The notes under the pieces are model-generated. The model did not search any database. It had not been told where the DNA came from and saw only the letters and a list, made by a program, of their open reading frames with translations. Of a DNA stretch of 64,000 nt, positions 53,153-64,000 are shown piece after piece. Within the stretch, counting starts at the first letter, position 1. Every line of letters begins with the position of its first letter. The position numbers and the translations under genes were made by a program. The DNA lies in assembly GCF_004209775.1 (NCBI RefSeq), contig NZ_CP035914.1, positions 1,612,001 through 1,676,000 of the forward strand, in the 5' to 3' direction. The stretch comes from Synechococcus sp. WH 8101. Lineage in GTDB: Bacteria; Cyanobacteriota; Cyanobacteriia; PCC-6307; Cyanobiaceae.

Positions 53153-53502
53153 TGTTAATTGGCTACGCCGTTCTGATTGCCGCCATTCTTTTTGAGAATC
53201 TTGGCACGGCCGCATTAAAGGGTTCCAATGGATTCAAGAGACCAGTGCTGGGTTCAGTTGCGGTCTTGGGATACATCCTGTCGTTCGCTTTTATGGGGCA
53301 GGCCTTGGCAAGGCTACCCCTTGCCATTGCCTATTCCATTTGGTCTGGCCTCGGCATGTCTGTTGTGACCCTGACGGGAATTCTCGTTTACAAAGAGAAA
53401 TTTGGATGGAAAGTTGCTCTTGGCTTGCTTCTCATCTTTTCGGGTGTCGTGATCTCAAACTATCCGGGCTTGGTGGAGTCAATGCCAGGAGTCGCCAGGT
53501 GA
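53152..53502 (+). CDS. SMR family small multidrug/metabolite exporter, subunit 2
   Basis: A 116-aa four-helix protein. Glu13-14 region AILFENLGTAALKGSNGF with the active-site Glu, LPLAIAYSIWSGLGM with the typical Trp, and GLLLIFSGVVI near the end. Heterodimer partner of the preceding subunit. Its end overlaps the convergent Rieske oxygenase gene by 24 bp. Both genes sit inside the prochlorosin array and may be an inserted accessory module. Confidence 0.85.
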   Translation: MLIGYAVLIAAILFENLGTAALKGSNGFKRPVLGSVAVLGYILSFAFMGQALARLPLAIAYSIWSGLGMSVVTLTGILVYKEKFGWKVALGLLLIFSGVVISNYPGLVESMPGVAR

Positions 53503-54627
53503 TTTGGGGTTGTTCAGCTCAGGGATGAGTTGTCTGAGCATGTCGTGGTGTTCTCGCAACGCTTTTTCAGAATCCCCGAGCAGCCCATGATCCCAGTATT
53601 TTGAGGCAGTAGCTTGATAGTGAAGCTCGCAGACATGTTTGTCCTCCAACATCACCTCCGCGTCAATGGCTGTGGATGTTTTTCTAGCGAATGTCATGCT
53701 CTCGCTTTCTCCGTCGTACTTGTAAGTCGCTCCCGTCATCACCGAGGTCTGCACGTCGAGCGGAATGGAGCGGTAGAAGCCTGCTGATTCGGGATAAAAG
53801 ACGAGGACTGAAACTGGAAATAGCCCAATGTAAAGCCAGGCTTGTGGAATGGAACGGAAGGGGTCCGGATGTTGTTCCACCAGCTCTCGATAGCGCTGAT
53901 TCAACTCTCGCCTCGATGGGTTCTCGTTGAAGGGACCTCGGATTCGATGCGTTCCATTAATCCATGGGCCTTCCTCGTAGCGGCGTCCATAGAGATCAGT
54001 GAGGCCAGGATGGGCAGTGGGGCAGTGGTAGCACTCGTTGTCCACATCCACCATTGCTTTCCAGTTCACCGGTGTGATCGGGCTGGTGTAGAGGCCATCC
54101 GTTGGTTCGAGTGATTCCAGCGGGTAAACACTGAGCTCGTCCTCATGACGCGCCATCATTTCAGCGATCGAGCTCTGCGGGCCAGGTTCAAAGCGCAGAA
54201 AGAGGAAGCCTCGCCAAATCTCCAACTCCAAGGGCTTCAGCGCCCAGGTGTTGCTGTCCAGGTCAGGGAATTTTTCTGGCTGGGAGACTTTCTTAAGATC
54301 TCCTTCCAATGTGTAAACCCAGGCATGGAATGGACACATGATGGCGCCACGACAATGCCCCTGATCCCCTTCCACCAGCCTTGAGCCGCGATGCCGGCAG
54401 GTGTTGTGAAATGAGCGAATCACGCCGTCCTGCCCCCGCATCACCAGGGCTCGTTCACCCAACAGGTCAAAGCTGAGCCAGTCTCCAGGCTGCTTGAGAT
54501 CGTTGACGTGACCGACGACATGCCAATGATTAAGAAAAACCTTCTCTTTCTCCGCGTCCAGTAGCGATGCGCTTCGGTAGCTCCAGGCCGGGAGTCCGTC
54601 GCGATTCCAGGTGTTTGCTGATGTCAT
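53479..54627 (-). CDS. Rieske-type oxygenase, alpha subunit (choline/betaine/carnitine demethylase-like)
   Basis: A 382-aa non-heme iron oxygenase. Rieske cluster: CRHRGSRLVEGDQG and CPFHAWVYTLEG (CxH...CxxH). The mononuclear iron site is in VDVDNECYHCPTAHPGL with His-x4-His, and a later Asp. The YHCPTAHPGL form is close to GbcA/CntA-type enzymes acting on quaternary ammonium compounds, rather than aromatic dioxygenases. Start ATG at 54627, overlapping a 38-aa frame. The adjacent SMR pair exports cations, which fits a shared substrate; inference. Confidence 0.82.
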   Translation of the reverse strand: MTSANTWNRDGLPAWSYRSASLLDAEKEKVFLNHWHVVGHVNDLKQPGDWLSFDLLGERALVMRGQDGVIRSFHNTCRHRGSRLVEGDQGHCRGAIMCPFHAWVYTLEGDLKKVSQPEKFPDLDSNTWALKPLELEIWRGFLFLRFEPGPQSSIAEMMARHEDELSVYPLESLEPTDGLYTSPITPVNWKAMVDVDNECYHCPTAHPGLTDLYGRRYEEGPWINGTHRIRGPFNENPSRRELNQRYRELVEQHPDPFRSIPQAWLYIGLFPVSVLVFYPESAGFYRSIPLDVQTSVMTGATYKYDGESESMTFARKTSTAIDAEVMLEDKHVCELHYQATASKYWDHGLLGDSEKALREHHDMLRQLIPELNNPKSPGDSWH

Positions 54628-54740
54628 GGTTCGATTCGACTCAACTCTTGGTAGCAAGCGCGGAGCGGATTGACCTGATCAGAGGCGCGGGCCCGGTCTC
54701 CCAGCTGCTTCAACTGCAGCCGTTGCTGGGTTGTGGTCAT
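54624..54740 (-). CDS. Small hypothetical protein upstream of the oxygenase
   Basis: A 38-aa soluble helical peptide (MTTTQQRLQLKQLGDRARAS). It has GAGGTG at a good distance before the ATG, and its stop overlaps the oxygenase start (ATGA), both signs of a translated gene. No family recognised. Confidence 0.5.
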   Translation of the reverse strand: MTTTQQRLQLKQLGDRARASDQVNPLRACYQELSRIEP

Positions 54741-56246: not shown

Positions 56247-56438
56247 GCAGCCACTCCCATAGCCACCACGACCATCCAAGACCTCCCCTCCCTCCCCCAA
56301 GCCTTCTTCTCTCGCCCCGCCCAGTTGGTCGCCCCCGACCTCATCGGCTGCCTGCTGGTGAAACGCCAAGAGAGTGGCGAGCTGCTCTGGGGCGTGATTG
56401 TGGAAACGGAGGCGTATTCCCATCAATCAAATCCCTGA
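56247..56438 (+). pseudogene. 3-methyladenine DNA glycosylase fragment 2
   Basis: Encodes [19 protein letters not shown] and [15 protein letters not shown], the first ~55 residues of an MPG-type DNA glycosylase with its catalytic Glu, and then passes straight into cassette repeat copy C and a stop (56438). Truncated, without start codon. Divergent from precursor 12, exactly as fragment 1 is from precursor 7 and fragment 3 from precursor 13. Confidence 0.82.
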
Positions 56439-56751: not shown

Positions 56752-57000
56752 TCAATCTATTCGCCTGCCTCCTTTAGAACAGGCCAGCCAATCGAAGGCA
56801 CCACCACCAGCCACGCCTTCCAGCTCCTCATCGGAAATCTCTGCCTGAGCTCTCTTCAAATCTTCAGCAGAAATCACAAAGCCCGCAGCCTTGGCAATCA
56901 CCACCACAGCATCCACATTTTCTGCTGCCTTCAGCTTTTCTTGAAGACCCGCATCAGCCTTGACGGCTTCCAGGAAAGCCTTGAGTTGCTCTTCTGACAT
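56752..57000 (-). CDS. procA: Prochlorosin-type precursor 13 (one-Cys core)
   Basis: 82 aa. Leader with AVVVIAKAAGFVIS and [10 protein letters not shown]. The 16-residue core has Cys8 directly followed by Ser9; with only that pair, a ring would need linkage to the adjacent Ser, which is sterically unlikely, so the natural product may be linear or merely dehydrated. Promoter CTGTCA-17-GATACT. DNA glycosylase fragment 3 is upstream. Confidence 0.88.
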   Translation of the reverse strand: MSEEQLKAFLEAVKADAGLQEKLKAAENVDAVVVIAKAAGFVISAEDLKRAQAEISDEELEGVAGGGAFDWLACSKGGRRID

Positions 57001-57031
57001 CGCGTTGAGTGGGCGAGGTGTGTCTGGCTTC

Positions 57032-57060
57032 AGTATCGCCCAGTCTCAGCTTGGTGACAG
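57032..57060 (-). promoter_or_regulatory. Promoter of precursor 13
   Basis: Minus strand: -35 CTGTCA (57055-57060), 17 bp, -10 GATACT (57032-57037). Confidence 0.6.
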
Positions 57061-57098
57061 CAGGATGGCATAAGACGTAGGCACGAGTAGCCACTCCC

Positions 57099-57383
57099 AT
57101 AGCCACCCAGCCCATCGCCAAGGATTTCCCCGCTCTCCCCCGCAGCTTCTTCTGCCGCCCCGCCGAGCAGGTCGCCCCCGACCTGATTGGCTGCAGGTTG
57201 GTGAAACGCCAAGCCGATGGCGAGCTGCTCTGGGGTGTGATTGTGGAAACGGAGGCGTATTCCCAAGACGACCCCGCCTGCCACGGCTATCGCCGCCGCT
57301 CCCCCAGCAACGAAACGCTCTTCGGTGAGCCAGGGCGTTTCTATGTGTATGTGAGCTATGGCATCCACCACTGCGTGAAATGA
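57099..57383 (+). pseudogene. 3-methyladenine DNA glycosylase fragment 3 (longest)
   Basis: Encodes [25 protein letters not shown] (core [12 protein letters not shown]), [30 protein letters not shown] and [16 protein letters not shown], then a TGA. This is ~90 residues of the ~190 expected for MPG, with the catalytic Glu of ETEAY intact; the DNA-contact residues of the second half are missing. No ATG precedes it. It gives the fullest view of the ancestral divergent neighbour of the cassette. Confidence 0.85.
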
Positions 57384-57412
57384 GTGCTTGATCGCCAAGC
57401 ACCCGTCAGATC

Positions 57413-58384
57413 TCATTGGATTGGCCGATCCAACCGCTGCTGGCACAACCATCTCAGGCGATCCATCGCCTGTTCACGCAGAAGCAGCTCTGGTCGATGG
57501 TCCAGGTGGTGCTCAAGCTCGCATGCGCGCAGCATCACCAAATCCAGTGCGAGGCGTGCATCTGTTTCCGATAACGCGTTGGTGTAGGTCGTCCAACGCC
57601 CTGATGCCGATTCAGTAGCCAGACAGCGGCCAAACAACTCCGCATGAAACCGACCCAGTGCTGCCACCATGCCCATGCAGTCGGCGATCAGTTCATCCAA
57701 CAGGTTGATGCGCATCTGACTCAGCAGGCGTTTGGTGGCCAGATGGGTGAGCTCATGCTCCAGGCGCAGGTTGGATGAGGCCTGCAACCATTCGGCCTCT
57801 GTGAGATCTCCAGGCACATCGCTAGCCTGCACCGAGCCATAGGGCGCATCATGCAGAACGATCAGCCGCGCTCTGCTCTGGCGGCCGAACGCTCGAATCA
57901 AGCCCCAGTGAATCAGGCCACTCACTGCCTGAGCATGCACGCCATCAACCAGCTTCGCGGGTTCGCCGCGATGAGCCAGGGCACGCACCAACAGCACAAA
58001 ATCAGCCCAACTGGGCGTCTGCACTACAGGCATGGCGCCGCAAGGATGCGGTGCGATCCAGAAACGCAACGCCTCTGGATCGTGCCAGTGGGGAGGTGCA
58101 TCAACGCCTGCGATCAAAGCCTGATCCACGCTCTCCCCACGGAGCACCAAAGCCTTGTAGAGATCGCTAGAGCTGATGCCACTCTGTTGCGGCAAAAGCA
58201 ACTGAGGCAGCCCGCTTTGCAGAAGCTCCAACACGCTCTGGCCCTGCAACACGCCATCCAAAGCATCAGCGGTGAGGTTGCTCCACCACGCCAACTCCGG
58301 GGGCTGAGCCAACGGAAACGCCGGCCAGGCTTTTGTTGCATCAGGAAATCCTTCGCAATAGCTGGCAAGCGTGGAATGGATCAT
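57413..58384 (-). CDS. Putative zinc metallopeptidase-like protein adjacent to procM
   Basis: 323 aa, cytoplasmic (no signal peptide). Residues 210-214 read HELTH, an HExxH zinc motif; DELIAD about 20 residues later (230-235) supplies a Glu in the position of the third gluzincin ligand. The flanking residues (LRLEHELTHLATKRLL; core EHELTHLATK) are helical, as in metallopeptidases. The N-terminal ~190 residues are of unknown fold, with several Trp-Pro and Cys-Gly features. No named family recognised. It lies between the last cassette and procM on the minus strand, so a role in leader removal, resistance or regulation is conceivable but not shown. Confidence 0.55.
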   Translation of the reverse strand: MIHSTLASYCEGFPDATKAWPAFPLAQPPELAWWSNLTADALDGVLQGQSVLELLQSGLPQLLLPQQSGISSSDLYKALVLRGESVDQALIAGVDAPPHWHDPEALRFWIAPHPCGAMPVVQTPSWADFVLLVRALAHRGEPAKLVDGVHAQAVSGLIHWGLIRAFGRQSRARLIVLHDAPYGSVQASDVPGDLTEAEWLQASSNLRLEHELTHLATKRLLSQMRINLLDELIADCMGMVAALGRFHAELFGRCLATESASGRWTTYTNALSETDARLALDLVMLRACELEHHLDHRPELLLREQAMDRLRWLCQQRLDRPIQ

Positions 58385-58626: not shown

Positions 58627-58914
58627 TCAATGAATAATGGTCTCTGTTCCGGGCTCGCCAATGACGCAAGGGTTCTTCGTCATATCGCACATAAAAGTTG
58701 GGCCAAATGGATCGCCGCCGCCTGCAACACTCTCGAGTTCTTTATCGGTCAGCCCACGAGAGACGTTCAGCAATTCAGAGGGCTCAATTGAAAATCCCGC
58801 CGCCTTGGCGATCGACACAGCTTCCTCAGCCGTCTTGGCCTGCGAAATTCGCTCTCGAAGGCCTGCATCGTCACGACAGGCATTAAGGAAGGATTTGAGT
58901 TGATACTCGGTCAT
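58627..58914 (-). CDS. procA: Prochlorosin-type precursor 14, procM-proximal (two-Cys core)
   Basis: 95 aa from the ATG at 58914. The leader is the second most divergent (MTEYQLKSFLNACRDDAG, SIAKAAGFSIEPSELL, KELESVAGG). The 29-residue core has Thr7, Cys10, Thr13, Cys17, Thr24 and Thr26: a clear Thr-x2-Cys and Thr-x3-Cys arrangement, with two small non-overlapping methyllanthionine rings the likely product. It has its own promoter (TTGACA at 58960-58965, 17 bp, TAAAAA). Divergent from procM by 109 bp. Confidence 0.88.
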   Translation of the reverse strand: MTEYQLKSFLNACRDDAGLRERISQAKTAEEAVSIAKAAGFSIEPSELLNVSRGLTDKELESVAGGGDPFGPTFMCDMTKNPCVIGEPGTETIIH

Positions 58915-59022
58915 TGAAAATATAGAGCTACCATTCTTTTTAAGCTGTCTACTAAGGATTGTCAACAGTCGGTCTCAACAATCGGGGTAGGATTGACCAC
59001 TCAACAGGAATAACTCGGCTTC
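58915..59022. promoter_or_regulatory. Divergent promoter region between precursor 14 and procM
   Basis: 108 bp containing a TTGACA for the minus-strand precursor (58960-58965) and a TTGACC (58993-58998) directed toward procM. The close spacing makes joint control of one substrate and its enzyme possible. Confidence 0.45.
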
Positions 59023-62000
59023 ATGGCCTGGACCCAACAGTGGCTTGAGCTCATCGCTCCAGACGAGCCCCACAAGCTCGAGCGACGCCTCGCCTGGGAC
59101 CAGTGGGCTAACAGCAACGCCTTTGCGGAGTGGCTCTCGGCTCCACCGCAGATCGAAACCAACCAATCCAAAGCCTGGCAAGAGGCCCTGACCCATTGCC
59201 AGGGATGGCTTCAATGCGCCTGGGATCAGCCCCTCCAGCCGGTGCAGGCCAGCGAACAGCGGCCCTTTGTCGACCTTTGGCTGCCAGTTCGGGATGGCGC
59301 CGCAGCAGAGCTGCGTGCAGCGCTTGAGCGCAGCGCTGGGCTTGATCGCATCGGCCCCAACGTGGTCGATCAACTGGCCGACTCCCTGCTGAATCGGCTC
59401 TGCGCCATCGGCGAGCAGGTGCTCTGGGATCAGTTCAACACGGGCCGCACTCCTGGAGCGATGCTGCTCGCCCATCTGGGGTCTGCAGGTGATGGAGAAG
59501 GGCCGCCGGTGCGAGAGCTCTACACCCGCTTCATCACAACGCACCGGCGCGATGGCTTGCAGAGCCTGCTCACCACCTTCCCCGTGTTGGGGCGCTTCAT
59601 CGGCACGGTGGTGGCCCTCTGGCATCAGGGCAGCCTGGAGATGCTGGAGAGGATCCAACAGGATCGCTCCATCCTGGCCGAGCATTGTTCGATCCCTCGC
59701 GATTGGTGCCTGCAGGCGGTGCAGCAGGGCCTCAGTGATCCCCACCGCGGTGGTCGCGCTGTGGCCATCCTCAGCTTCACATCACCGGATCGCAGCAACA
59801 GCCATCGGTTGGTCTACAAACCCAAAGACATGGGAGTGGATGCGGCTTACCAGGCCCTGATTAAGGACCTCAATGCCAACTCCGAGCTGCCTCCCCTGCG
59901 CAGCCTCGTGGTGCAGACCTGCGATGGCTATGGCTACATGGAGTATGTGTCCCACACCCTCTGCACCAACGCTGAGGAGCTGGAGCGCTTCTACCGCAAC
60001 GCCGGCCGACTCACCGCCCTGCTGCACCTGCTCGGCTGTACCGATTGTCACCATGAAAATCTGATCGCCAGCGGTGATCAGTTGGTGTTGATCGACACGG
60101 AGACCCTGCTGGAAGCTGACCTTCCCGATCACATCCAGGCGGCTGCTGAGGCAGCAGAACACCAGGAGCCCTCAGGCCTGCAGCAGCGCTTTCGGGGCTC
60201 CGTGCTCAGATCCGGTCTGCTGCCCCAGTGGTTGTTCATGGGCCAGGCCAAACAGGCCATCGACATCAGTGCCCTTGGCATCGCACCTCCCGCCAAAGAG
60301 GAGATCACGATGGCCGGCTGGCTTGGGATCAACAGCGACGGCATGATGCCCGGCCGGATCAACCGAGCGGCCGAATGCCCCACCAGCCTGCCGGTGGGCT
60401 TTGGCCACAGCAATCCGTTGTCCGACCATCTGGAGCCGTTCTGCGCCGGTTTTCGGCTCCAGGCTCAAGAGTTGCTGCAGCTGCGCGAGCGTTGGTTGAG
60501 CCCAGACAGTCCGCTGGATCGTTTTGAGGGCCTGCCGCGCCGGATCGTGTTGCGGGCCACGCGGGTGTATTTCGCCCTGCAGCGGCAACAACTCGAAGCC
60601 TCAGCCTTACGGACAGAAGAGGCCCAGGCCCTGCGCCTCGAGCAACTGGGCCGCAGCTTTCTTTTAGCCGAGAGCAAACCGCTGCACTGGCCAGTGTTTG
60701 CCGCCGAGCGCGAGCAAATGCAACGGCTGGATATTCCATTCTTCACGCATCCGATCGATCGCGATGGCCTGGAACTCGACGAGAAAGGCTCGCTGCTGCC
60801 GGGGTTCATCGAAACCAGTGGCCTGGCCTCCGCACGCAAGCGGCTCAGGGCCTTCAATGCAGCCGAAATCGACTTTCAGGAGCGCTTGATTCGTGGTGCC
60901 GTGCAGGCCCGCATTCTCAAGCAACGGCAACAGGTCAGTCCATCGGAAGGCATCAATCAACAAGAAGCCCCCCCCCATCCGGCTCCTGCGATCACAGCGG
61001 TTGAGGCTGCCACCACCATCGCCCAGACGCTCCTAGATCTTGCGATCCGAGATCCACAGGGGCAGATCGAGTGGTTGGGAATGGATCTCGGTGCCGATGG
61101 TGAGAGTTTTTCGTTTGGGCCGGTCGGTCTCTCGCTCTACGGCGGTTCGATCGGCATCGCTTGCCTGTTGAAGCGGCTCCAAGCCCTCGGCACCGCGCCA
61201 GCCAAAGTGGAGGCGATCCAAGCGGCGATCCTCAAACCACTGCATGACCTTGTGGGTCAAGCCCATGGCGATGGGCTGAGGCGCTGGTGGCGCGACCAAC
61301 CCCTGGGCCTGAGTGGCTGCGGCGGCATTCTTCTGGCACTACTCGAGATCGGGGAAACCGAGTTGGCCGCCCAACTCCTGAAAGGAGCCCAGCCCCGCTT
61401 CATCGAGGCCGATCAGCAATGGGATGTGATCGGCGGCTGCGCAGGTCTGATCGGACCCTTACTGCAGCTCCGATCCACAGCATCGATTGAACTGGCTGTT
61501 TTGGCTGGCGATCGGTTATTGCAAGCCCAGGATGCCAATGGCAGCTGGCGACTGTCGACGCGCCACTCCGGACTGCTGGGGTTCTCCCACGGCACTGCGG
61601 GCTATTCCGCCGCCCTGGCGCGGCTCCATCAGGCCACAGACGAGGAGCGCTTTCTAAGGGCAGCACGCCAAGCCGTATCCCATGAGCGAGGCCATTTCCA
61701 CGCCGATGTCGGCAACTGGCCCGATTTTCGCGGCCAACAGACATCTGCGGAAGGACCCTCTTACATGGTGAGCTGGTGCCATGGCGCACCCGGCATTGCT
61801 CTCGGCCGCGCCTGTCTCTGGGGCACCGAACTCTGGGATGACCAGTGCGCTGAGGAACTCAGCATCGCTCTTGAAACCACAGCATCGATCAAGCAAATTA
61901 GGATGGACCATCTCTGTTGCGGCTCCCTCGGCTTGATGGTGCTGCTGCGCGATCTGGCCCAAGGGCCCTGGCCGCTGAGCGAACGCGTCCAACAGCTGGC

Positions 62001-62211
62001 GTTGGCCCAAGCCAGGCAGATCCAGGAGCAGGCGCTGGATCGATGCCAAGGCACGGAACCACAGCTGCGCTGCTTTGGCACCCAGGAAGGCAACCTGGTC
62101 TTGCCAGGCTTCTTCACAGGATTGAGCGGGATGGCCTTGGCGTTGCTGGATGATCGCGACTCACAATGTGCAATTAACACACTCTTGAGCGCCGGCCTAC
62201 TGAAAAAGTAA
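59023..62211 (+). CDS. procM: Class II lanthionine synthetase, ProcM type
   Basis: A 1062-aa bifunctional LanM. The N-terminal dehydratase (to ~residue 640) has VYKPKDMGVD, GYMEYVSHTL, the phosphotransfer-type motif TDCHHENLI and LIDTETLL; it phosphorylates and eliminates water from core Ser/Thr. The C-terminal LanC-like cyclase (~680-1060) has GFSHGTAGY (His856), SWCHGAPG (Cys919) and LCCGSLG (Cys965-Cys966). Three Cys zinc ligands with CCG in place of the usual CHG characterise the promiscuous ProcM group; the 46-residue spacing to the second Cys matches ProcM's C924/C970/C971. The only such enzyme in the window, so it should serve all fourteen precursors. Confidence 0.95.
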   Translation: MAWTQQWLELIAPDEPHKLERRLAWDQWANSNAFAEWLSAPPQIETNQSKAWQEALTHCQGWLQCAWDQPLQPVQASEQRPFVDLWLPVRDGAAAELRAALERSAGLDRIGPNVVDQLADSLLNRLCAIGEQVLWDQFNTGRTPGAMLLAHLGSAGDGEGPPVRELYTRFITTHRRDGLQSLLTTFPVLGRFIGTVVALWHQGSLEMLERIQQDRSILAEHCSIPRDWCLQAVQQGLSDPHRGGRAVAILSFTSPDRSNSHRLVYKPKDMGVDAAYQALIKDLNANSELPPLRSLVVQTCDGYGYMEYVSHTLCTNAEELERFYRNAGRLTALLHLLGCTDCHHENLIASGDQLVLIDTETLLEADLPDHIQAAAEAAEHQEPSGLQQRFRGSVLRSGLLPQWLFMGQAKQAIDISALGIAPPAKEEITMAGWLGINSDGMMPGRINRAAECPTSLPVGFGHSNPLSDHLEPFCAGFRLQAQELLQLRERWLSPDSPLDRFEGLPRRIVLRATRVYFALQRQQLEASALRTEEAQALRLEQLGRSFLLAESKPLHWPVFAAEREQMQRLDIPFFTHPIDRDGLELDEKGSLLPGFIETSGLASARKRLRAFNAAEIDFQERLIRGAVQARILKQRQQVSPSEGINQQEAPPHPAPAITAVEAATTIAQTLLDLAIRDPQGQIEWLGMDLGADGESFSFGPVGLSLYGGSIGIACLLKRLQALGTAPAKVEAIQAAILKPLHDLVGQAHGDGLRRWWRDQPLGLSGCGGILLALLEIGETELAAQLLKGAQPRFIEADQQWDVIGGCAGLIGPLLQLRSTASIELAVLAGDRLLQAQDANGSWRLSTRHSGLLGFSHGTAGYSAALARLHQATDEERFLRAARQAVSHERGHFHADVGNWPDFRGQQTSAEGPSYMVSWCHGAPGIALGRACLWGTELWDDQCAEELSIALETTASIKQIRMDHLCCGSLGLMVLLRDLAQGPWPLSERVQQLALAQARQIQEQALDRCQGTEPQLRCFGTQEGNLVLPGFFTGLSGMALALLDDRDSQCAINTLLSAGLLKK

Positions 62212-62213
62212 AG

Positions 62214-64000
62214 TCAATGACTGGCCAACATGCGCTGAAGGTAACCATGGTTCTTTAGTTCATCCCACTGGCCTGATTCCGCAGGGCAGCCGCGCTCGAG
62301 GATCACAATCTGATCCGCCTGTTGAATAGTCGCCAGTCGATGAGCGATGGAAATCCGCGTAATGCCAAGGGCGTTGATCGTTTCAGTGATCGCCAGCTGA
62401 GATCGATTATCAAGGGCGCTGGTGGCTTCATCCATGATCAACACCTTCGGTTGGGTGATCAGAGCACGGGCGATCGCAATGCGCTGCACCTGGCCACCCG
62501 ACACGTTGCCGCCGGAATCGCTGAGCAGGGTCTCCAACTGCATGGGCATCGCACGCACTTCGTCGGCCACTGCAGCCCTTTCAAGGGCTTCCCAGACCTC
62601 CTGCTCAGTGCGTTGCACGCCACCGCAGATCACATCGTAAATCGAGCCAGCATTCAGGCGTGCGGTCTGCATCACCACACCAAGCTGACGGCGATAGGCG
62701 CGAATCGCCAGCTGACTCAGGGGAATACCATCTACCAATAATTCACCTCCCATCGGTGTGATGAAGCCCAGCAACATTCGCACCAGTGTGGTTTTACCGC
62801 ACCCACTCGGGCCGGTGATCGCCGTGTGTTGACCCGCCGGGATCGAGAACGACAAATTCTGAAAAAGAGATTCACTGCTGCCCGGAAACTCATAGGCAAT
62901 GCGGCGCAAACGAAACTCACCCTTCAATTGATGGTGCACCGCATCGGCTTGATAGCCAGGCTCCACGTCGGCGTACATCACCGGTTCAGCCCGCTGCCAC
63001 AGCACAGCAGCGCGCCCAGCAACGTTGGCAATGAGGTTGACCGCACCGGTCACCGAACCATTGAAGCTACCGAAGGCAGCATTGAAGGAAATAAAAGCCA
63101 CCACCGTTTGATTTAATTCAAAGCTGGTCGGGCTGTTGAGAACCCGATAAGCCACTACAGCAAACAAAAACAAGCTGGCCAGAGGCGAGACAAGCGTGCC
63201 GTATTGCTCAATCGCATCGCTATACACGCTGCTGCGTAATTGCAGGAGGGCATAGCGATTCACCTCACGCAACCATCGCAACAGCACAAACGGTTCCGCA
63301 CCGGCACTGCGTATCTGGGGCATGCCCATCACGGCTTGGAGAGAAAAATTGGTGATTTCTGCTCCACTCTCGAGCAAGGGCATCTGCAGCTGAATCGAGC
63401 GCCAGGTGATCCAAAGCAGGCAGATCACGGCCACCAACGTGAAGGCACTGGCCCAGAGGGCCAGATGACTGTCGTAGACGAACATCAACACGAAATAGCT
63501 GACCGCGAACAAGCTCGACAGCAACGTGGAGAGCACACCATTACCCATCAACTGGCGCAACTGGCTGATGGAGCTGACGCGAGAAGCAAGATCACCAGTG
63601 GTATAGCGGCTGACAAAACTCATCGGAAGGCGCATCACCCGATCCCAAACGGCCGATTGCAAGCGGAGATCGGCCACACTCTCCAGCCGCAGCATCATCA
63701 AATTCTGGAGATATTGGGTGGCGACCGAACCGATCACGATCAACACCACCACGGCGAGCCCCTGAAAAAGCAACTCCTGATCGTTTTGCGGCAGGATGCG
63801 ACTCACAAGAAGATTGGTCAGCATCGGGATCGACAGATTGAATCCCATCACCACAGCTGACGTGATGATCAACGCCAGCAAGGCTGCGAATTCCGTGCCG
63901 AAAGCAAAGCGCAACACCGCCAGGGGACCAGGGACACGCTCCGGTAAGGAAAGGTAAATTTCAAAGCCCGTATCTTCAAACGCCGTGGCATCCGTAGCGG
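62214..64000 (-). CDS. Bacteriocin-type ABC exporter, ATP-binding/permease (NHLM/LanT-like), 5' end outside window
   Basis: 595 codons of a half-transporter are visible; the reading frame is open to the right edge, so the N-terminus is missing. A six-helix membrane domain (starting LRFAFGTEFAALLALIITSAVV) is followed by the ATPase: Walker A GPSGCGKTT, signature VSGGQVQRIAIARA, Walker B VLIMDEATSALD and an ISIAHR H-loop. Exporters of this group move processed Nif11-type peptides; whether a C39 double-glycine peptidase precedes the visible part cannot be told. Convergent with procM, only 2 bp between their stops. Confidence 0.85.
   Translation of the reverse strand, partial: ATDATAFEDTGFEIYLSLPERVPGPLAVLRFAFGTEFAALLALIITSAVVMGFNLSIPMLTNLLVSRILPQNDQELLFQGLAVVVLIVIGSVATQYLQNLMMLRLESVADLRLQSAVWDRVMRLPMSFVSRYTTGDLASRVSSISQLRQLMGNGVLSTLLSSLFAVSYFVLMFVYDSHLALWASAFTLVAVICLLWITWRSIQLQMPLLESGAEITNFSLQAVMGMPQIRSAGAEPFVLLRWLREVNRYALLQLRSSVYSDAIEQYGTLVSPLASLFLFAVVAYRVLNSPTSFELNQTVVAFISFNAAFGSFNGSVTGAVNLIANVAGRAAVLWQRAEPVMYADVEPGYQADAVHHQLKGEFRLRRIAYEFPGSSESLFQNLSFSIPAGQHTAITGPSGCGKTTLVRMLLGFITPMGGELLVDGIPLSQLAIRAYRRQLGVVMQTARLNAGSIYDVICGGVQRTEQEVWEALERAAVADEVRAMPMQLETLLSDSGGNVSGGQVQRIAIARALITQPKVLIMDEATSALDNRSQLAITETINALGITRISIAHRLATIQQADQIVILERGCPAESGQWDELKNHGYLQRMLASH

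Follow-up and report, generated by a model that had tools for sequence, protein, structure and literature searches.

Results

A DUF7005 gene between procA-like genes and procM

The window, that is, the whole stretch of 64,000 nucleotides of Synechococcus sp. WH 8101 DNA that was analysed, encodes a 323-aa protein (P0001) close to procM. The features of this region are listed in Table 1. The first-pass annotation had described an HExxH motif at residues 210-214 and an acidic DELIAD segment downstream. Both were confirmed in the minus-strand open reading frame: HELTH occupies residues 210-214 and DELIAD residues 230-235, and E231 of DELIAD lies 17 residues past the last His of HExxH. From composition alone, 0.03 HExxH motifs are expected in P0001. 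The same annotation had assigned the protein to no recognised family. However, the Pfam model PF22541 (DUF7005) matches P0001 with 166.8 bits against a cut-off of 27, and nearly the whole model is covered. The family entry assigns no function. P0001 is the sole DUF7005 copy found in its own genome. In contrast to the DUF7005 proteins of non-picocyanobacterial Cyanobacteria, which have 382-407 aa, P0001 lacks a segment after about residue 169.

Searches of NCBIfam with P0001 gave zero matches. Sequence searches of the PDB with the protein, the full profile and the active-site profile gave no convincing relative, and no zincin was found via the profiles; the best matches, heptanedioate aldolase (E 0.027) and osteocalcin and IF-1 (E 0.11-2), were judged to be chance. 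DUF7005 was not found in the viral collections and phages searched. Because the highest 19-residue Kyte-Doolittle mean in P0001 is just 1.33, a membrane segment is unlikely, and the absence of a strongly hydrophobic stretch suggests that the protein is cytoplasmic. Scans for promoters and terminators around the DUF7005 gene gave no signal above shuffled sequences.

Table 1. Features around the DUF7005 gene in the window
Feature	Position	Strand	Basis
DUF7005 protein P0001, 323 aa, putative gluzincin-like metallopeptidase	57413..58384	-	ORF with ATG start; PF22541 E 8.2e-49
HELTH codons (H210-E211-L-T-H214)	57743..57757	-	HExxH in 39/39 ORFs, window included
DELIAD codons (D230, E231 = putative third ligand, D235)	57680..57697	-	Family conservation and signature scans
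Nif11-type procA-like precursor (...DKELESVAGG-core) between DUF7005 and procM	58627..58965	-	49% identity to Nif11 reference L096:15628-15966
procA-like precursor downstream of DUF7005	56752..57000	-	Pattern match (ten-residue motif)
ProcM/LanM lanthipeptide synthetase	59023..62211	+	PF13575 E 3.4e-102
NHLM_micro_ABC2-like ABC transporter, continues past window end	62214..64000	-	Scores under NCBIfam cut-offs
Methylpurine-DNA glycosylase piece, truncated	57123-57383	+	PF02245 E 1.6e-27, profile positions 1-76 of 181
Methylpurine-DNA glycosylase piece, truncated	~56280-56420	+	Sequence likeness to the 57123-57383 piece
Rieske ring-hydroxylating oxygenase alpha subunit	53479-54657	-	

The stop codon of the Nif11-type precursor gene lies 242 bases upstream of the DUF7005 start. 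The precursor on the other side of DUF7005 is one of ten procA-like pattern matches across 49-57 kb of the window. Past the window end, in the same direction as the ABC2-like transporter gene (TIGR03797-like), there are genes for ABC1 with a C39 domain (TIGR03796-like), HlyD (TIGR03794-like) and TolC (L095); the scores on which the names TIGR03797-, TIGR03796- and TIGR03794-like are based are below the curated cut-offs. Two genes separate this exporter operon from the DUF7005 gene: procM, which runs in the other direction, and that of one Nif11 precursor. The exporter's C39 domain has Cys22, His96 and Asp112 at what we take to be the catalytic positions. The two glycosylase pieces in Table 1 are convergent to the procA genes, and give the impression that part of a nearby gene had been copied by procA units. 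The Rieske oxygenase gene lies within the procA array.

Conservation of the HExxH motif and comparison with other HExxH proteins

HExxH and DE[LI]xAD are kept in all 39 DUF7005 ORFs, including that of the window; it should be mentioned that this count contains an exact duplicate locus (L053/L055), a near-duplicate pair (L067/L093) and three incomplete or frameshifted copies (L061, L129 and L135). Twenty members from picocyanobacteria, other Cyanobacteria and Spirosoma (Bacteroidota) were aligned; these were drawn from 28 DUF7005 sequences, with L055, L060, L064, L065, L069, L071, L073 and L093 omitted. All 20 match DUF7005 in Pfam, and their identities to the window protein range from 26 to 65%. 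The alignment has 31 invariant columns, which include R207, L208, E209, H210, E211, H214, N227, D230, E231, L232, A234, D235 and G238.

For comparison, we collected 12 M4 peptidases and six TIGR04267 proteins from cyanobacterial genomes. A thirteenth M4 locus (L159) did not give a usable protein, and one of the six TIGR04267 proteins (L165) scores under the family cut-off. In M4 peptidases, zinc is coordinated by the second Glu, and an Asp four residues further along holds a ligand His. The pattern HExxH-x(14-22)-[ND]Exx[SA]DxxG was found in all 38 DUF7005 relatives and all 12 M4 peptidases and in none of the six TIGR04267 proteins. Conversely, RPxxGxxH after HExxH was found in four of the six TIGR04267 proteins, but in 0/38 DUF7005 and 0/12 M4 proteins. 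Among 1498 distinct open stretches of at least 150 aa from the collected loci, 85 possess HExxH and 49 possess the full signature (37 DUF7005 and 12 M4), which is absent from the remaining 36 HExxH stretches; these patterns were devised after looking at the sequences, and few other peptidases are present among the stretches scanned.

At the profile level, DUF7005 scored 29.2 against M4 (maximum over 60 column shuffles, 21.6) and 21.2 against TIGR04267 (best of 60 column shuffles, 20.8). The hhalign probability was 4.7% for DUF7005 and M4, with an alignment that extended little beyond HELTH, and 0.6% for DUF7005 and TIGR04267. A Pfam search with the 20 DUF7005 members gave nothing but DUF7005 at E <0.039, so no M4 model matched any of them, and assignment of DUF7005 to M4 was rejected. 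Assignment to TIGR04267 was also rejected, because the NCBIfam model matched none of the 20 members and RPxxGxxH does not occur in the 38 relatives. Because the motif is shared with M4 but a family-level match is absent, we call DUF7005 gluzincin-like and do not treat it as a member of M4. Thus, the gluzincin pattern proposed in the first-pass annotation stood: HExxH and the downstream Glu are conserved, and outside DUF7005 the signature was seen only in M4 among the stretches scanned. The presence of a conserved and specific gluzincin-like pattern is supported, and the peptidase role of DUF7005 is putative. An AlphaFold model of P0001, computed from a three-sequence alignment, had a pLDDT of 34 and a pTM of 0.19, values too low for a fold to be read from it.

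Linkage of DUF7005 with exporter operons in other genomes

The order HlyD-ABC1(C39)-ABC2-DUF7005, or a close variant, is present in L052, L055, L056, L058 and Spirosoma L094 (the contig of L055 starts inside ABC1, and in L058 DUF7005 comes first). Within the taxonomic family of the window's genome, DUF7005 lies directly behind or heads an exporter operon in L055, L056 and L058, and likewise in the metagenome-assembled contig L052. The L052 contig, which is labelled Bifidobacterium breve, carries a TolC-HlyD-ABC-ABC-DUF7005 operon close to picocyanobacterial ones and is presumably mis-binned. In other Cyanobacteria, the usual order is DUF7005-cNMP-HlyD-ABC1-ABC2, mostly with ParA; the cNMP-binding neighbour in L066 is TIGR03896 (bacteriocin-type transport-associated). 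Nine of the ten full-length DUF7005 copies outside the family have RiPP-type genes within about 10 kb, namely LanM (L066 and L075), radical SAM, YcaO and SagB (L067), or precursors; no RiPP gene was seen within that distance of the tenth copy (L070). In L076, ABC1 and ABC2 flank an 89-aa remnant of DUF7005.

Four plasmid records carry DUF7005, and in all four it lies in a RiPP locus: Nostoc UHCC 0926, Nostoc C057, Pseudanabaena galeata and Spirosoma oryzicola. Two of these records repeat loci of the ten-copy set (the Nostoc UHCC 0926 record is without annotated features and was read from L066, a contig of equal length, and Nostoc C057 is nearly identical to L067). In the 20 kb around DUF7005 of Nostoc C057, precursors and modification genes were found and no exporter was seen. 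The gene order in the Spirosoma oryzicola plasmid (Bacteroidota) is cNMP-TolC-HlyD-ABC1-ABC2-DUF7005. Thus, linkage of DUF7005 with NHLM exporter genes recurs in separate lineages: in other picocyanobacteria, in further Cyanobacteria and, on a plasmid, in Bacteroidota.

Some of these loci encode unusual large proteins. Upstream of ParA-DUF7005 in L066 (6608-8419, +) is a gene for a 604-aa protein whose N-terminal part is a Nif11 leader domain (PF07862, TIGR03798), joined to the sensor domains dCache and HAMP, so that a signalling protein carries a leader of the precursor type. In the Nostoc-type loci L067 (11450-14041) and L068 (11426-14029), proteins of 864-868 aa with zero Pfam matches are encoded between a dCache gene and ParA-DUF7005, and ORFs of 892 and 864 aa are present at the same place in L069 and L071.

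The first-pass annotation had proposed a new component beside procM. The link to RiPP maturation and export held, whereas the tie to procM itself did not. LanM was found within about 9 kb of DUF7005 in none of the 12 other loci of the family (L054-L065), two of which have contigs that end sooner. At three of these 12 loci there is an NHLM-type exporter, and at nine there is none within about 9 kb. Furthermore, in G557 the procM-exporter stretch is 89% identical to that of the window and has no DUF7005 at that spot. Because LanM was seen at none of the 12 loci, nine of them have no NHLM-type exporter within about 9 kb, and other copies occur with radical-SAM/YcaO genes, we dropped a procM-specific role.

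Co-occurrence with LanM and C39 exporters

Among the 31 genomes of the genus, DUF7005 is present in 17 and LanM in 13 (counting a fragment in G193), and 12 genomes possess both. DUF7005 occurs in 12/13 LanM-positive and 5/18 LanM-negative genomes (Fisher 4e-4, which ignores shared ancestry). In the genus, DUF7005 and LanM co-occur, mostly without linkage. For the exporter, TIGR03797 was dropped as a proxy, because it matches ABC transporters generally (201/201 genomes and 14/14 controls). When a strong C39 domain was defined as E <1e-20, a line chosen after viewing the list, DUF7005 was found in 15/18 genomes of the genus with a strong C39 and in 2/13 other genomes (Fisher 2.5e-4, again ignoring shared ancestry). 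Five carriers of DUF7005 are LanM-negative. Three of them (G542, G156 and G562) have kept C39; in the two without C39, the DUF7005 copy is frameshifted, with pieces in two frames (G123), or cut by the contig end (G560).

The reverse cases are G537, G553 and G555, which possess a strong C39 without DUF7005. Because LanM and the exporter are intact in G553, DUF7005 is not indispensable. In G551, DUF7005 is frameshifted near the C-terminus, though LanM and C39 are present. In G193 (L077), LanM is reduced to a 390-aa fragment, and the exporter and DUF7005 persist.

In the sample of 201 genomes from the taxonomic family, DUF7005 was found in 10/13 LanM-positive and 3/188 LanM-negative genomes, and in 11/43 strong-C39 and 2/158 other genomes; it was not found in 188 of the 201. 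LanM without DUF7005 occurs in G072, G107 and G186. Because 32 of the 43 strong-C39 genomes do not possess DUF7005, it does not accompany C39 exporters in general; the C39 domain also marks other exporters.

DUF7005 copies beside dnaG and the origin of the window's copy

Of the 17 carriers in the genus, 15 have DUF7005 within 1.3 kb of dnaG and unlinked to the exporter. The remaining two are G560, where the DUF7005 gene runs off the end of the contig, and the window's genome. In G071, LanM (281 kb), DUF7005 (712 kb, dnaG not nearby) and the C39 exporters (1057 and 2259 kb) occupy separate places. A tree was constructed without L055 (duplicate), L061 (frameshifted) and L135 (cut by a contig end). 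In this tree, the window's copy falls outside a clade of 17 unlinked copies that includes those of its congeners (support 100/99), and groups with the exporter-linked L052, L053 and L056 (support 84/86, which is not strong). The locus L140 of G557 matches window positions 59013-63989 at 89% and 56808-57395 at 82%, and the intervening stretch, with DUF7005 and the adjacent precursor, is unmatched. G557 carries a dnaG-side DUF7005 instead (L132), which is 40% identical to the window's copy. From the tree placement and the comparison with G557, an exporter-type DUF7005 appears to have replaced the dnaG-side copy in the window's genome, beside procM; this direction of change is our reading of the sequences.

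Discussion

We propose that DUF7005 is a soluble, cytoplasmic gluzincin-like zinc peptidase that serves NHLP/Nif11 RiPP export and maturation by hydrolysing the common leader element. We favour this proposal tentatively, at somewhat short of even confidence. On this basis, the product of the window gene is probably an overlooked protease of long-leader peptide maturation. The evidence on hand is the conserved motif, the specific two-part signature, the family assignment, the operon linkage and the co-occurrence; from these we infer zinc binding, peptidase activity and the leader as the substrate. In the proposed mechanism, the long-leader precursor would be modified in the producing cell (in the window's case by ProcM), and cleavage after the double Gly would fall to the ABC exporter's C39 domain. 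In DUF7005, H210, H214 and E231 would bind zinc, E211 would act as the general base, and the leader element common to the precursors would be hydrolysed. DUF7005 might destroy the spent leader of 60-70 residues, which would otherwise occupy ProcM and C39, or it might trim the leader ahead of C39 action. Because the C39 residues of the window's exporter look intact, leader removal has no obvious need for a second peptidase. The type of modification varies among DUF7005 loci (LanM, radical SAM, YcaO/SagB), so the shared element is the leader plus the exporter. Since the leader, nearly always with the exporter, and not the modification enzyme is the common denominator, leader-directed proteolysis is our first choice.

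Four other explanations were considered. One is that DUF7005 is not a peptidase but a silent or regulatory subunit of the export operon, for example in the control of exporter assembly, and that the HExxH/E site is structural. DUF7005 lies between MinD/ParA-like and cNMP-binding genes in six of the ten full-length copies outside the family (L066-L069, L071 and L074), and in three of these six a dCache-domain gene is one or two genes past ParA. To our knowledge, no hydrolytic activity has been reported for any DUF7005 member. However, every presumed catalytic residue, including the general-base Glu, is kept in the 39 ORFs, and we consider this explanation unlikely.

Operon linkage fits equally an active metallopeptidase of the same pathway that acts on the core, by trimming after the GG cleavage or by nicking rings, as MfuP (M61) does. 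There is a precedent in a class II lanthipeptide cluster with a PCAT and a metalloprotease, described in the available part of a protease review (PMC10885120). However, lanthionine, radical-SAM and azole clusters all have DUF7005, and a single genome with it may encode many unrelated cores. With clusters and cores so varied, a protease aimed at the leader is more natural than one specific for the core, and action on the core seems distinctly unlikely.

It is quite improbable that DUF7005 is a housekeeping metallopeptidase without a role in the pathway, whose linkage and co-occurrence come from shared ancestry or hitchhiking. The position beside dnaG in most carriers of the genus, the L070 copy without RiPP neighbours, the inflation of the statistics by related genomes and the many strong-C39 genomes of the family without DUF7005 would suit this explanation. 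Against it, DUF7005 adjoins NHLM exporters again and again, in distant Cyanobacteria as well as on a plasmid of the Bacteroidota, and a gene that was not found in most genomes of its own family is a poor fit to a housekeeping gene. Finally, although RiPP-cluster HExxH proteins once called peptidases have proved to be oxygenases (PMC12636437, available sections) and the TIGR04267 profile score is barely over the best shuffle, it is very improbable that DUF7005 belongs with the Fe(II)/alpha-ketoglutarate HExxH enzymes such as ChlH, BpmH and PflC and acts on the peptide by hydroxylation or oxidative cleavage, given that the TIGR04267 model matches no DUF7005 member of the alignment and that RPxxGxxH is absent from, and [ND]Exx[SA]DxxG universal in, the DUF7005 relatives.

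Prochlorosins are the standard case of one enzyme that modifies many substrates. Removal of their leaders has been hard to reproduce: when the isolated protease domain of a Prochlorococcus MIT9313 transporter was assayed in vitro, one laboratory found it inactive, and LahT150, which comes from another organism, took its place (PMC6363468). A wider proposal would be that DUF7005 is a new thermolysin-like metallopeptidase family and an overlooked, widely shared component of NHLP/Nif11 secretion across phyla, that leader processing or clearance depends on it, and that its absence from the assay explains the inactive MIT9313 domain. We regard this wider proposal as rather unlikely. If leader-directed proteolysis by DUF7005 is true, such a conserved second peptidase, found with the exporters whatever rings are formed, would fill a gap in the maturation pathway and could serve as a tool enzyme, and a function could be assigned to a Pfam family that has none so far.

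In the one library of open-access literature searched, no paper on DUF7005 and none on TIGR03896 (by identifier and name) was found, and searches for Nif11 with peptidase, HExxH or metalloprotease gave nothing on DUF7005. The family is not mentioned in the available parts of a survey of cyanobacterial bacteriocins (PMC3140520), of a prochlorosin survey that gives S9, M24 and M32 peptidases (PMC10783134), of the protease review cited above, or of PMC13060382 and PMC7268733.

Compared with known systems, DUF7005 is found within operons of NHLP/Nif11 export systems (TIGR03794, TIGR03796, TIGR03797 and TIGR03896). As far as its accessible text goes, the description of these systems in 2010 comprises HlyD, C39-ABC and ABC proteins and precursors and does not name a further peptidase (PMC2887384). 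DUF7005 resembles M4 peptidases (thermolysin; PF01447) in HELTH followed by (N/D)E-xx-(S/A)D-xx-G about 17-20 residues on; however, its spacer is three residues shorter and there is no profile-level similarity beyond the motif. Like the TIGR04267/IPR026337 proteins (ChlH, BpmH and PflC), it is an HExxH protein within RiPP clusters, but the motif after HExxH is different and their family model is unmatched. MfuP (M61) is likewise a second metal-dependent protease beside a C39 exporter, as described in the available part of PMC10885120, but it belongs to another peptidase family, a distinction that we draw by family name and not by sequence.
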